Positions 19,685 through 27,120 of a stretch of DNA of 64,000 bases are shown here, in pieces. The position numbers were made by a program, and so were the translations under genes. Each line of letters opens with the position of its first letter. Position 1 is the first letter of the stretch. The notes beneath the pieces were generated by a model, which saw only the letters and a program-made list of their open reading frames with translations, was not told where the DNA came from and did not search any database. This DNA comes from Myxococcota bacterium (GTDB lineage: Bacteria > Myxococcota > UBA727 > JAHDBA01): NCBI GenBank assembly GCA_020630615.1, contig JAHDBA010000001.1, positions 76,838 to 140,837 on the forward strand. The letters run 5' to 3'.

Positions 19685-19739
19685 AACCCAAACTTTGATC
19701 CTAGCTTGCGAGGGCGCTGAAACTTGGGGAAGATTGCAG

Positions 19740-20915
19740 ATGACACGATGGTTATGGAGATCGATAAAATTCCTATTCGCACTGGGGCTTTTGTGCTTTG
19801 CCTCTTGCGTTGTTGAACGCCAACTTTCGTTTCGATTGGACGCAACGCGTGCCGAAAGGGCGCGTGAAACCCAGTTCTTTGCTGAGGGACGATTTCAAAA
19901 CAAGCTCCCAACTGAAGTTAAGTTTGGACGCGAGCAAAGCAAAAATTATCTCGATGAATTGTGGAGCAATGGAGCAGTCAAAGAACCCAAGAGACCTATG
20001 CCGAGGCGTACACGCGAAGAAATATTGGTAGCACACGAAGACGCAAGCGCTTTGAAGATAACCTGGCTTGGGCATTCTTCAATACTGGTATCGATTGACA
20101 ACAAACGTTTTCTCTTTGACCCTGTATGGTCAACGCGAGCATCGCCTGTTCAATTTGCGGGCCCGAAACGTTTTTCTGAGAACCTCATTGAGCTTGATGC
20201 GCTCCCAAAACTTGATGGCGTGATTATCAGTCATGACCATTACGACCATCTTGATCGTGAAGCGATAGAAACACTCGCTCAGCTTGGCAACAGTTTTTTT
20301 GTCCCCCTTGGTGTCGACCAACGCTTTGAGGAATGGGGAATCTCTCCAACACAGATTTTTTCACATGTGTGGTGGCAAGAAAGTCTCTTGGGTGAACACC
20401 GGGTAATAGCCTTACCCGCTCGACATTTCTCAGGGCGGGCTCTGAGTGACCATTTTCAAACACTTTGGGTATCATGGGCAATCATTGGTCCCGAGCATCG
20501 GGTCTTCTTCAGCGGTGACACCGGAATGCACCCAGATTTTAAAACGATAGGTGCGCGACTTGGACCTTTTGACATCGCAATGATGGAAAGTGGTGCATAC
20601 AATCAAGCGTGGCCCAATGTGCACATGGGCCCGGAGCAAGCAGTCGACGCATTTTTTGACTTAAAGGCTCGCATCTTTTTGCCGATTCATTGGGGAGGAT
20701 TCAATCTTGCCCTGCACACGTGGACTGAGCCAGTGGAGCGTCTTGTGACCCTTGCGAAGTCACGGGATTTTGACTTGGCGACACCCATCTTGGGCGAGAC
20801 GGTAATACTAGGGGAAGCGCTCCCGCAATCGCGTTGGTGGCCTTCTCTTAAACACGAAAATGCACGAGAGCGCCCGATAATCTCCTCGCATCTTACTTCT
20901 TCAACTGCAGATTAG
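19740..20915 (+). CDS. Metallo-beta-lactamase-fold hydrolase, NAPE-PLD-like lipoprotein
   Basis: 391 residues. The ATG at 19740 is preceded by GGGGAAG and opens a signal ending FASC (lipoprotein-like). The fold is seen as ITWLGHSSILVSIDNKRFLFDPVW, the zinc motif ISHDHYDHLD (about 163-170), PARHFSGR, FFSGDTGMH, MESGAYNQAW and PIHWGGF. This is the pattern of the NAPE-PLD/UlaG-type branch, which cleaves phosphodiester bonds in lipids or sugar lactones. The ARHFSGR and HWGGF motifs favour the NAPE-PLD side, so a membrane lipid substrate is plausible. The location would be the periplasm, attached to a membrane. An earlier start at 19695 would overlap the terminator region and is less likely. Confidence 0.88.
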   Translation: MTRWLWRSIKFLFALGLLCFASCVVERQLSFRLDATRAERARETQFFAEGRFQNKLPTEVKFGREQSKNYLDELWSNGAVKEPKRPMPRRTREEILVAHEDASALKITWLGHSSILVSIDNKRFLFDPVWSTRASPVQFAGPKRFSENLIELDALPKLDGVIISHDHYDHLDREAIETLAQLGNSFFVPLGVDQRFEEWGISPTQIFSHVWWQESLLGEHRVIALPARHFSGRALSDHFQTLWVSWAIIGPEHRVFFSGDTGMHPDFKTIGARLGPFDIAMMESGAYNQAWPNVHMGPEQAVDAFFDLKARIFLPIHWGGFNLALHTWTEPVERLVTLAKSRDFDLATPILGETVILGEALPQSRWWPSLKHENARERPIISSHLTSSTAD

Positions 20916-23188: not shown

Positions 23189-23932
23189 TTAGCGAGTGGC
23201 GATTACTTTTAGAGCATAGAATGGATGAAGCTCTTTGATGAGTTTATTGTTTGCGATACCGAATCCGGACATGGAGAGTTGATTGATAGCGTCTTCGATC
23301 GAAGAGCCCTCGCTCGTGAGCGCAACGAGACTCGCAAGTGGTGCACTGACTTCTCGCCAATGTACGGAATCGTCGTGGCGATAGGCCAAAACAAAATGGG
23401 GGAGAGTAGAGGGTTCTGTTTTCACCTTCTCGTCGTCCAAAATTTTGTGAGATTGATAGGAATGAACAAAAAGGCGCAACGAGTTCGAAAGCGCAAGACG
23501 ACTTTGTATGGTGAGAGGAGCAAAATCATCCTCTACAAAATTATCGTTGGGGGCGTTCAGAATATCGGGGTGGCTGCACTCCCATTGAAGCAACTCGCAC
23601 AGTGCAGGGTGATGCTGAAAGGAGTTGGATTCACGTAGCCATTCGGCAAATACGACTGGGATTCTCCAATAGAGGGGCTCCTGAAGTGAGCTCTCCTCTA
23701 AAAACGCTTGAATCATAACATCCAAGAGTTCGGGATTCAGTCGTTTGGCCTGTGGGCAGGCGGCGCGAACAACACTCATCAAAGAATTCCGAGCCATTCT
23801 GCGGTAAAGTTTGTGAGCGCGTTGTTTACGGGGTGGTGTTGAAGAGGTGCTTTTCCGATGCGTTGCTCGCTTTTCGTCTTTAGAAAAGATCAAAGCATCG
23901 TAGTCGATGGACGCGAGACTTCGTATATTCAT
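23189..23932 (-). CDS. BufC/HvfC-like partner protein (DUF2063 type)
   Basis: 247 residues. Identification rests on position directly after the MNIO enzyme gene (36-base gap, same strand) and on the general layout of DUF2063-type partners. A basic N-terminal arm (RKQRAHKLYRRMARNS) precedes a helical domain (residues 50-130). A C-terminal alpha/beta part begins FVLAYRHDDSVHWREVSAPLA and ends in a domain-like LHPFYALKVIATR. In known systems this protein binds the precursor peptide and presents it to the MNIO enzyme. Similarity to named members is weak by eye. Confidence 0.6.
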   Translation of the reverse strand: MNIRSLASIDYDALIFSKDEKRATHRKSTSSTPPRKQRAHKLYRRMARNSLMSVVRAACPQAKRLNPELLDVMIQAFLEESSLQEPLYWRIPVVFAEWLRESNSFQHHPALCELLQWECSHPDILNAPNDNFVEDDFAPLTIQSRLALSNSLRLFVHSYQSHKILDDEKVKTEPSTLPHFVLAYRHDDSVHWREVSAPLASLVALTSEGSSIEDAINQLSMSGFGIANNKLIKELHPFYALKVIATR

Positions 23933-23968
23933 GGGTGCCTTAAGGTATCAATAGCATTCAGGTGAATG

Positions 23969-24847
23969 CTAGGATGAGTTTTTTGTGGGGAGGGAATCAC
24001 GCATGAAAGCACTGACACTGGCGCGGATCGTATCAATCTCAAGCAGGAGTTCAGAGAGTGGTGGTATCGCCTTATCTCGCTCCAAAAGAATAGGAGTTCC
24101 ATGCACCAACCGAGGAAGGGCATATTGAAAAAGCTCAAAGACATTCTGATGAATAGGCGTTCCGTGGGTGTCAAGACGTAGACCGTCGTCCTCAACTTCG
24201 TGCCCTGCAAGATGAACTTGAATAACATTGCGAAGGGGGAGCGCATCAATTGTATCGTGTGCTCGATGCCCAAAGTTTTTTGCGTTCACATAGACGTTGT
24301 TAATATCAAGAAGAAGTTGGCATCCACTTTGAGCAATGAGTTCAGAGATAAAATGCGCCTCGTCCATGATCGATCCTTCAACACGCATGTACGCGGACAC
24401 ATTCTCGACCGCGACAGGCACACCAAGGATATCTTGAACGCGTTGAATACGCTCCACACATCGCTTGAGCGATTCGCCATCAAAGCGCATCGGTAAAAGT
24501 TCGTGAAGCACATTGGAAGGAGTTCGCGTCACGCAGAGATGATCACTAAACCACGGGATATTCCATTCGTGAATAAATTCCTTGAGTTGTGAGAAATAAC
24601 CCTCATCAAATGGAGCAAGACCAATCAAGTCTCCCATGAGTCCATGTGTAAGCAGTGGATAGACATTTCGAGCCTGCGATAAAATGCGATGTCGGAATCC
24701 GCCTGTGCCAATATAGTTTTCAGGAGCAATCTCGAGAAAATCGATGGTCTTCACTGCTTCATCGTTCTCGATAAGCTCTCTTGCGAAGCTGAAACGTAAA
24801 CCCAAGCCTACGGGGAAATCCAATTGAGATTCAATACCTTGATCCAT
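23969..24847 (-). CDS. MNIO-family (DUF692) multinuclear non-heme iron enzyme, BufB/HvfB-like
   Basis: 292 residues from the ATG at 24847 (a TTG at 24868 would run into the terminator T-run). DUF692 enzymes use two or three iron ions to modify cysteines of a precursor peptide. The family's metal-site motifs are all visible in order: VGLGLRFSF, FLEIAPENYIG, HGLMGDLIG, IPWFSDHLC, VAVENVSAYM, LLLDINNVYVNAKNFGH, IQVHLAGHEVEDDGL, DTHGTPI, and ILLERDKAIPP. It sits between a small Cys-motif precursor (24914-25219) and a partner protein (23189-23932). That is the gene order of bufferin and oxazolin clusters, where cysteines become thiooxazole or oxazolone-thioamide groups that bind copper. Confidence 0.9.
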   Translation of the reverse strand: MDQGIESQLDFPVGLGLRFSFARELIENDEAVKTIDFLEIAPENYIGTGGFRHRILSQARNVYPLLTHGLMGDLIGLAPFDEGYFSQLKEFIHEWNIPWFSDHLCVTRTPSNVLHELLPMRFDGESLKRCVERIQRVQDILGVPVAVENVSAYMRVEGSIMDEAHFISELIAQSGCQLLLDINNVYVNAKNFGHRAHDTIDALPLRNVIQVHLAGHEVEDDGLRLDTHGTPIHQNVFELFQYALPRLVHGTPILLERDKAIPPLSELLLEIDTIRASVSAFMRDSLPTKNSS

Positions 24848-24866
24848 ATCAGCACTATCAATCCAC

Positions 24867-24892
24867 AAAAAAAACCGCTCTTATGAGCGGTT
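24867..24892 (-). terminator. Intrinsic terminator/attenuator between RiPP precursor and enzyme genes
   Basis: On the minus strand AACCGCTC and GAGCGGTT pair perfectly around ATAA and run into eight T residues (counting the last two of the stem). It lies 20-45 bases after the precursor stop and ahead of the enzyme start. Partial stopping here would give much more precursor than enzyme, the ratio expected for a RiPP. Confidence 0.8.
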
Positions 24893-24913
24893 CAAAGATT
24901 GCCCTCTCCGACT

Positions 24914-25219
24914 CTAGCCGCAAGACCCTTCCCCGCATGAGCCTTCTGCTTTGTGGTCGCCGCCACAGCTGCCTTCGGCATTCTGTTCACCGGTGGACGC
25001 TTCATCTGAAGTTGCTTCACCTTTCACTGCGCCTTCAACTGCACCTTTCCCGGCAGCTTTTGCCATATCTGCGCCACATGAACCTTCATGTTCCATGGCA
25101 CCTTCTTTTGCACCTGCTCCTGCCGCTTTTAGGCGTGAGCTGTTCGTAGAAGCACAGCCAACCGCCGTGGTTAAAAGTGCTGCTGTTGAGATGTTAACTA
25201 AAATTTTCGAAGCATTCAT
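24914..25219 (-). CDS. RiPP precursor with EGSCG motifs (bufferin/oxazolin class)
   Basis: 101 residues with a strong AAGGAG ribosome site. Residues 1-21 are a signal peptide ending TAVGC, so Cys22 may be lipidated. A Gly/Ala-rich spacer (31-43, 52-70) carries repeats such as KAAGAGAKEGA and KAAGKGAVEGA. The motif EGSCG occurs four times (45-49, 82-86, 92-96, 97-101); the last two are in tandem at the very C terminus. HvfA-type precursors carry repeated EGKCG motifs, whose cysteine is turned into an oxazolone-thioamide by an MNIO enzyme. Lys to Ser in the middle is the difference here. The enzyme and partner genes follow directly. Predicted product: an exported, surface- or membrane-attached copper-binding peptide. 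Confidence 0.85.
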   Translation of the reverse strand: MNASKILVNISTAALLTTAVGCASTNSSRLKAAGAGAKEGAMEHEGSCGADMAKAAGKGAVEGAVKGEATSDEASTGEQNAEGSCGGDHKAEGSCGEGSCG

Positions 25220-25279: not shown

Positions 25280-25380
25280 TCACAACTTTGGTTTCAGAAA
25301 TTAATATTTTAAGTTCTCAATTCGCGAGTCATCTCCAATGTTAATCATGAGTAAGACGAAGTCCGACATTAAAGACCTTG

Positions 25381-25401
25381 TATGACAAATCGTTTGTCGT
25401 A
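25381..25401. promoter_or_regulatory. Inverted repeat ahead of the ECF sigma gene
   Basis: TATGACAAA and TTTGTCGTA flank TCG; eight of nine positions are complementary and the ninth is a G-T pair. It lies 38 bases before the sigma ATG in the divergent intergenic region, so it could be a regulator site acting on one or both operons. Confidence 0.35.
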
Positions 25402-25439
25402 TCGCTTTCGGTTTGGCCGTGCCCTTGGTAATAGAGAGC

Positions 25440-26180
25440 ATGGATTCATCACCCGACGCGAAACAATTTGAGGAAGGCGTCCCGAAAGCTTCAACTCAGC
25501 TCATCAAGCGTACGGATGCGCTGATCACTCGAGCGGCCGAGACGAAACTCCATAGAGCAGAAACTTCGACTGTGTCCAAATCGCAAGCTCGACGACGTGA
25601 GAAGGATCGTGTTGAGAAAGCGAAGTCGGGGGACCTCAAAGCGCTCGAGTCTTTGCTTTCAGACAACGAACGTAAGCTCTATGGTGTTGCATTGGGAATC
25701 CTGAAACACCCTGAAAACGCTAGAGATGCTGTTCAAGAAACCATGATTAAAGCGTACCGAAAGCTTGATGCCTTTGAAGGTAAATCTGCGTTCTCGACGT
25801 GGGTGTATCGAATATGTTTCAATACATGTCTTGATATGCGTCGCTCTCTAAAACGAAAATCGGCTTCCTCGTATGAATCAATTTTGGAGTCAAGCCCACA
25901 AGTGATCGAGAAGAAAGTTCTTGATGAGCGTGGCCCAGAAGCTGCGATCTTAGGTGGAGAGCTCAAGAGTAAACTCAACGATGCACTGAATAGTTTGTCT
26001 GAGGCGCATCGAGAGATCATCGTGCTTCGAGAAGCCGAGAGTCTGTCCTATGATGAAATTGGTGAACGACTTGGCATACGCAGAGGGACGGTCATGTCAC
26101 GTCTATTTCATGCGAGAAAGAAACTTGCCGACTTTTTAACTACTTATGAATCCGGGGAATCCGATCCGGAGGCTGAATAA
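25440..26180 (+). CDS. ECF-type RNA polymerase sigma factor
   Basis: 246 residues from the ATG at 25440. The open frame begins at a TTG 27 bases upstream; the start is not certain. A basic N-terminal extension of about 55 residues precedes region 2 (ESLLSDNERKLYGVALGILK, NARDAVQETMIKAYRKL, FSTWVYRICFNTCLDMRR). Region 4 follows (LSEAHREIIVLREAESLSYD, EIGERLGIRRGTVMSRLFHA). It would direct RNA polymerase to a small regulon. The next gene looks like its membrane anti-sigma factor. It is divergent from a BufA/HvfA-like operon; in Caulobacter the bufferin genes are under the ECF factor SigF, so a regulatory link is plausible. Confidence 0.93.
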   Translation: MDSSPDAKQFEEGVPKASTQLIKRTDALITRAAETKLHRAETSTVSKSQARRREKDRVEKAKSGDLKALESLLSDNERKLYGVALGILKHPENARDAVQETMIKAYRKLDAFEGKSAFSTWVYRICFNTCLDMRRSLKRKSASSYESILESSPQVIEKKVLDERGPEAAILGGELKSKLNDALNSLSEAHREIIVLREAESLSYDEIGERLGIRRGTVMSRLFHARKKLADFLTTYESGESDPEAE

Positions 26181-26181
26181 A

Positions 26182-27120
26182 ATGAAAATTGAAGCGTCAG
26201 AATTAATGATGAAGACTTTTGAGTTCAAAAACCCTGAAGAAAAGGTGCATTTCCAAGCACTTCAGGCACTTTTTGAGCTTTTTATGGCCGGCGAGCTTGA
26301 TGCTGATCTGGAGAAAGTACTCTTCACAGAATTGGCCGATAAACCCCTCTGGGCATCGGTTTTTGAGAAAAGTGTTGAAAACACGAATCTCATCACCCCG
26401 AACACCTGGGCACATCGAATTGGCATCGATGATGAGACGAATCTGAATGTCGGTACTCTTTTAGCGCAAACACAAGAGTTAGAGTGCTTGGGCACATCCT
26501 TAGTTGATGGTTCTATGCGAGATTTGAATGCGGATGTCCTTGCCGCGACCTTATCGTCTCTGAGTGTCAAGCAGCAAGAGGAGTGGTTTGATGATGTGTC
26601 ATCGATGCTTGAGTCCCGCCCGTGGGTTCAGAGCACGTTAAAAGATTTAGGGCTTGAAGCAGAACGAGTTTTGATCGAAGATCGTAGCGAGAATCGCTCA
26701 GCTCTTCAAAGAGCGATGCATCAAATCAAAACTGAAAAACGTTTTCAATCTGAAGCTTCTAACGCGATGCAGGTTGTACAACCATCACTGGAAAAACCTT
26801 GGTTTGATCGTTTCATTGGGGTCTTCTCATTGGGCTTTGGGGCTGTGTGTATTGCCTTGTGTGTCTTCACTTTGAGTTTTGTTGAAGAGGGGAAGGAGAA
26901 TCACGATTCATCCGCATTTGCTCTTAGGCATGACGAGCATGAATTGCCCCAAAAGGATGAGGTTGCATATCAAGATTTCGATGAAGAGTCACTTTTTGCA
27001 GTTGTGAACGACGATCATACATGGATCGAGTCCGTTGAGACGGATACCAATGACACGATGATATTTGAAACTGGGGAGCACCATCTCAAAGTGATTTGGG
27101 TACAAGAGGGGCAAGGGTAA
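26182..27120 (+). CDS. Putative membrane-anchored anti-sigma factor
   Basis: 312 residues from the ATG at 26182, which has GGAGG upstream. An acidic, helical cytoplasmic part (residues 1-205) is rich in Leu/Glu, and one membrane helix follows (about 212-232, FSLGFGAVCIALCVFTLSFV). The rest is an acidic outside tail of about 80 residues. There is no zinc-finger HxxxCxxC motif, so it is not a ZAS-type anti-sigma factor. The role is inferred from its place one base after the sigma stop and from the one-helix topology. The next gene encodes an exported protein in the same operon. Confidence 0.65.
   Translation: MKIEASELMMKTFEFKNPEEKVHFQALQALFELFMAGELDADLEKVLFTELADKPLWASVFEKSVENTNLITPNTWAHRIGIDDETNLNVGTLLAQTQELECLGTSLVDGSMRDLNADVLAATLSSLSVKQQEEWFDDVSSMLESRPWVQSTLKDLGLEAERVLIEDRSENRSALQRAMHQIKTEKRFQSEASNAMQVVQPSLEKPWFDRFIGVFSLGFGAVCIALCVFTLSFVEEGKENHDSSAFALRHDEHELPQKDEVAYQDFDEESLFAVVNDDHTWIESVETDTNDTMIFETGEHHLKVIWVQEGQG

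Follow-up and report, generated by a model that had tools for sequence, protein, structure and literature searches.

The closest described systems to the locus analysed here are the HvfABC operon of H. influenzae and the FonABC cluster, whose products oxazolin and fontiphorin are captophorins carrying 5-thiooxazole (PMC13097082, PMC13419390), and NedABC of Neisseria dentiae. For the NedA precursor, which has been made as a lipidated oxazolin, a loss of 4 Da per motif and tri-acylation have been demonstrated (PMC12636315), and lipidation of an oxazolin is therefore not a new property. The cassette in the window (the whole 64,000-nucleotide stretch of DNA under analysis) belongs to the oxazolin (HvfA/HvfBC) branch of captophorins and lies in a Myxococcota-type genome. 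It shares with HvfABC and FonABC an MNIO and a DUF2063 partner, E-G-x-C-G repeats, an export signal and the metal-site residues, but carries a Ser-Cys rather than a Lys-Cys motif (PMC13097082, PMC13419390). The HvfA signal is described as a signal peptide whereas the window precursor has a lipobox, the hvf operon includes a DoxX-like gene (HvfX) that the window cassette lacks and, unlike HvfABC, the window proteins score below the NCBIfam cut-offs. The likeness to NedABC extends to the signal peptidase II lipoprotein signal, the repeated E-G-x-C-G core and the MNIO with its partner; NedA, however, has three EGKCG motifs, whereas the window precursor has four EGSCG motifs and its enzyme lacks the equivalents of FonB Arg16 and Phe250 (PMC12636315). 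The bufferins Buf1 and Buf2 are a further comparison. They too are thiooxazole copper RiPPs made with an MNIO and a DUF2063 partner, some are lipoproteins, and a sigma factor can accompany Buf1 clusters, as the window has an adjacent ECF sigma gene, but their precursors are of the DUF2282 or 6/12-Cys type instead of having EGxCG repeats (PMC12452194).

We read the locus as an operon for a lipidated, copper-binding captophorin of the oxazolin type whose core motif is a Ser variant, and put the probability of this reading at roughly 0.8. The initial annotation had described a three-gene RiPP cassette in which a precursor, an MNIO/DUF692 enzyme with all metal-site motifs and a partner protein follow one another, and this description stands. 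The genes lie on the minus strand and are transcribed in that order: a precursor of the HvfA/captophorin type (24914..25219, 101 residues, identified from its open reading frame, profile matches and homologues), an HvfB-like MNIO maturase (23969..24847, 292 residues from its ATG) and a DUF2063/HvfC-type partner corresponding to an RRE (23189..23932, 247 residues). All three reading frames are intact. The MNIO frame also offers a TTG start at 24868, but the ATG at 24847 is the most likely start because a terminator hairpin has its T-tract where the TTG lies. A Lactamase_B_2 metallohydrolase gene is also present (19695-20915, plus strand). Such genes are frequent in CxxxxC MNIO clusters (PMC12452194); this one is probably unrelated to the cassette because it lies on the other strand and beyond gatCA.

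The precursor sequence reads MNASKILVNISTAALLTTAVGC-ASTN... and has EGSCG motifs at Cys48 (25073..25087), Cys85 (24962..24976) and, in tandem at the very C terminus as first noted, Cys95 and Cys100 (24917..24946), all on the minus strand. When its residues are shuffled, at least one EGSCG arises in just 0.17% of cases, and the real precursor has four. It has the repeated five-residue E-G-x-C-G core of an exported-type precursor, with Ser in place of Lys. The window precursor matches the NCBIfam HvfA-family domain NF050137 with E = 0.002 and 17.8 bits, below the cut-off of 19.5, whereas a close EGSCG-type homologue from the same bacterial family (L054) passes it with 23.7 bits. The precursor does not, then, group with unrelated Gly-rich lipoproteins, the outcome that would have overturned the initial annotation, and in phmmer comparisons it matches two related precursors (L034 and L035) with E-values of 1e-10 and 2e-9.

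The maturase matches Pfam PF05114 with E = 8e-83. Its predicted model (pLDDT 92) is closest in the PDB to 3BWW (E = 2.5e-25, TM-score 0.90 on the target), with TglH and MbnB the next structures. An alignment of 25 MNIOs shows no variation at H68, H103, E148, D181, N184, H212, D226, H228 and E256, and their assignment as metal ligands follows published work on MbnB and HvfB together with motif alignment. For the partner, the match to Pfam DUF2063 (PF09836) is just over the cut-off (27.9 versus 27.2 bits) and that to NGO1945_C slightly below it. A sequence search of the PDB returned chance matches alone, but a fold search with the predicted model (pLDDT 85) retrieved 3DEE (NGO1945; E = 4e-8) and TglI (8HCI_A; E = 9e-6). 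The first of these is NgoC, which acts as partner in the cluster characterised from N. gonorrhoeae (PMC13097082). Against the curated NCBIfam models both proteins fall short: the MNIO scores 262.8 bits with NF003818 (HvfB; equivalog cut-off 360) and is also below the equivalog cut-off of the BufB model, while the partner scores 72.6 bits (E = 4e-20) with NF050145 (HvfC; cut-off 142). By the NCBIfam equivalog standard they are homologous, not orthologous, to HvfB and HvfC.

That precursor, MNIO and partner are all below the curated HvfA/B/C cut-offs counts against our reading. So does the absence of DoxX, because known operons often carry a DoxX gene: the cassette contains none, and a profile search of the host genome, made family by family for DoxX, Lgt and LspA, found none above the cut-off. 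One could suppose that the cassette is degenerate, or that the precursor is an ordinary Gly/Ala-rich lipoprotein left unmodified by the enzyme; the low complexity of the precursor, its sub-threshold match to the curated HvfA model and the long MNIO branch (1.13 on the tree) would fit. We regard this as very improbable, given three intact reading frames, the retention of every metal-site residue, and a gene order and motif that are conserved in the nearest relatives at a deep divergence of 47-50% MNIO identity.

We found the relatives, more than 100 of them, by scanning 84,980 species genomes as well as the phylum. The host assembly is of 2.83 Mb and its relatives are Myxococcota, the closest being a 51,226-base contig from the same bacterial family (L034/L054). 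In a tree of 61 MNIOs the window enzyme belongs to an 11-member clade (support 99) whose precursors are of Ser, Lys, mixed and Asp types. Ser motifs are frequent among the sampled Myxococcota loci, which is a new observation. The initial annotation took the Ser variant to imply a different modification, and this part of it is not supported. At the third position of the motif Lys and Ser, and also Thr, Gln and Asp, replace one another, both among the repeats of one precursor and among sister loci that agree at the two pocket positions. One precursor (L059) reads EGSCG, EGKCG, EGSCG, EGKCG, EGSCG in order, and Lys and Ser are likewise mixed in three others (L055, L097 and L125). Sister enzymes that agree at these two positions serve precursors that are all-Lys (L056 and L058), all-Ser (L057) or of the EGDCG kind (L060); L056, L057 and L058 read RL...ERDG. 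We considered whether the Ser motif marks a distinct enzyme clade and rejected this, as Ser and Lys are scattered on the tree, where Ser-motif enzymes do not form a clade and at least six Ser/Lys changes are required. Covariation of the FonB Phe250 equivalent with position 3 was also rejected, since ERDG enzymes serve Lys, Ser and Asp motifs.

Published work on the Lys-type enzymes is in keeping with this. With FonBC, position 3 can be Ala, Arg or Thr, and the 5-thiooxazole ring uses the backbone carbonyl oxygen of that residue, the side chain remaining outside the ring (PMC13097082). Ser-for-Lys is a natural variation that is common in the phylum and probably implies no new chemistry. A modification of the Ser-Cys motif other than that of EGKCG (involving the Ser side chain, for instance, or an oxazolone/thioamide) would find some encouragement in the two altered pocket positions (Arg16 to Phe and Phe250 to Lys) and in a full-text literature search that found no paper on EGSCG and no characterised EGSCG substrate, the supplementary motif tables of PMC13097082 lying outside that search. 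Yet comparable pocket changes occur in sister enzymes with pure EGKCG precursors, single precursors served by a single enzyme carry both motifs (L055 and L059), Lys and Ser have switched repeatedly, and all characterised MNIO-PME1 clusters install 5-thiooxazole (PMC13097082). We consider a different modification improbable.

The pocket itself merits comment. By motif mapping, the FonB pairs Arg15-Arg16 and Asp249-Phe250 would correspond to Arg18-Phe19 and Asp258-Lys259 in the window enzyme, which thus does not have the pocket of the FonB-type (Lys-Cys) group. The presumed catalytic Asp and the first Arg are retained throughout; in the window's clade Phe, Leu or Ala comes after the Arg, and Lys, His, Ser or Gly after the Asp. 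This putative mapping fits the statement in the FonB paper that Cys-Lys enzymes have Asp at this site (PMC13097082): ERDD occurs in the Buf2-type locus L098, and RR...ERDF in the Psychrosphaera loci L094 and L110. On this alignment the clade is without two pocket residues discussed for FonB (Arg16 and Phe250), a new observation, and substrate handling may differ from that of FonB because Phe and Lys take their place.

The claim of a lipoprotein-type N terminus is supported by the sequence. A lipobox, AVGC, was read by eye around Cys22 (25154..25165, minus strand), giving a predicted signal peptidase II site with Ala at +2. It is kept in the precursors of nearly all close Myxococcota relatives, L059 being an exception; precursors upstream of the relatives' MNIO genes are mostly of the lipoprotein type in both Myxococcota and Planctomycetota loci, and the host genome encodes Lgt and LspA. 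Lipidation at Cys22 is therefore predicted, as is sorting to the outer membrane because Ala follows that residue. The signal regions of the window precursor and of L053-L060 have a common consensus resembling [FIL]LxxLGSxxALL, a likeness that exceeds expectation for signal peptides, and this region may also serve as the leader that the partner recognises.

Taken together, these features suggest the following scheme. The partner, through its RRE, would bind the precursor, probably at the signal sequence, and, still in the cytoplasm, hand it over to the MNIO. This di-iron enzyme would then oxidise the four EGSCG cysteines by four electrons each to 5-thiooxazole, with the carbonyl oxygen of the preceding Ser becoming the ring oxygen. 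After export through Sec, the modified peptide would receive its lipid at Cys22 from Lgt and be cut by LspA. It would then be sorted to the outer membrane, where its thiooxazole thiols would sequester copper. The most likely product, judged from sequence, is a Ser variant of oxazolin, namely a captophorin that is anchored in the membrane and bears four 5-thiooxazoles; the predicted properties are a loss of 4 Da at each of the four cysteines (-16 Da in all), copper binding and outer-membrane anchoring.

Copper binding, which the initial annotation had also proposed, is supported by homology, and a copper function for the window peptide is suggested purely by analogy. The same modified lipoprotein might instead bind another metal or buffer redox stress: captophorin functions have been linked to heavy-metal and oxidative stress in general, the ECF sigma factor next to the cassette does not belong to the recognised copper sensors, and copper failed to induce a related Microbulbifer cluster, for which a protective role has been doubted (PMC12538549). 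This last result also weighs against our own reading. On the other hand, assayed thiooxazole peptides of this type have generally bound copper (PMC13097082, PMC12538549), and we think a role other than copper handling unlikely, although it is the alternative to which we give most weight.

The gap between the precursor and MNIO genes contains a terminator-like stem-loop (24872..24893, minus strand) with a 9 bp stem, a 4 nt loop and a T-run; its z-score is -2.6 and none of 100 shuffles was equally stable. Counting a stem-loop as present when it is more stable than about 95% of shuffles, we found one in this gap in 29 of 39 related loci across phyla, including all eight tested from the window's clade, compared with 9 of 38 equally long control stretches taken from upstream of the precursors. 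The stem sequences are unrelated among loci, and the MNIO papers that we searched make no mention of such a hairpin. In other RiPP operons, such as those for lantibiotics, hairpins of this kind set the precursor excess. By analogy, the stem-loop here may end most transcripts, giving much precursor and little enzyme.

The regulation of the cassette could involve an ECF-type sigma factor (25440..26180, plus strand; Sigma70_r2 and r4_2 matches), a candidate regulator encoded divergently 220 bp from the precursor gene. It is followed by a gene for a protein with one hydrophobic span (26146..27120, plus strand), a candidate anti-sigma factor that had no Pfam match and has a weak homologue at the same place in L034. 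The divergent sigma gene was found in this position only there, and the sigma/membrane-protein block was not found conserved outside the same bacterial family. A sigma-70 promoter scan performed no better than chance, and in an ECF promoter comparison between the window and L034 the best local alignment scored 22, against a shuffle maximum of 25. Control by the divergent sigma factor is possible. An imperfect palindrome, GTATGACAAA-TCG-TTTGTCGTAT, lies at 25380-25402 between the precursor and sigma genes and is a possible operator.

Beyond this locus, we tentatively propose, at somewhat less than even odds, a separate branch of lipid-anchored Myxococcota captophorins in which the MNIO has lost the proposed FonB pocket contacts and takes motifs with Lys, Ser or Asp ahead of the Cys, and in which a terminator hairpin of conserved position, a general and hitherto undescribed feature of these operons, fixes the precursor-to-enzyme ratio. 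The cassette would extend the thiooxazole copper RiPPs, known mainly from Pseudomonadota, to a form that is lipid-anchored and found repeatedly across Myxococcota. Natural variation shows that the residue before the modified Cys is free to change, so that the enzyme's substrate tolerance and the part played by its pocket residues become directly testable, and the conserved hairpin suggests a way in which such operons make much peptide but little enzyme.

The survey also yielded several minor observations. In L065 and L112, two genomes of one genus within the window's MNIO clade (and also in L039 and L040), MNIO and DUF2063-like genes are present and no Cys-Gly precursor was found nearby. The gene upstream in L065 and L112 encodes an exported protein with no Cys beyond the signal and an LLQ or PLQ ending, which we take to resemble a protease-propeptide (I9) domain and which is a possible non-Cys substrate. 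Melainabacteria-type loci (L061, L062, L064, L071, L072, L078-L080 and L087) have precursors with repeated EGSCK/ESSCK, with a charged residue after the Cys of the kind that FonBC rejects, and often a second small KGSCG precursor upstream. Finally, a second MNIO cassette lies on the same contig about 27 kb past the end of the window (L033:9687-12357) and comprises a Buf2-like, Cys-rich lipoprotein precursor (LVHCY), an MNIO, a partner-like protein and a CxxCH lipoprotein.
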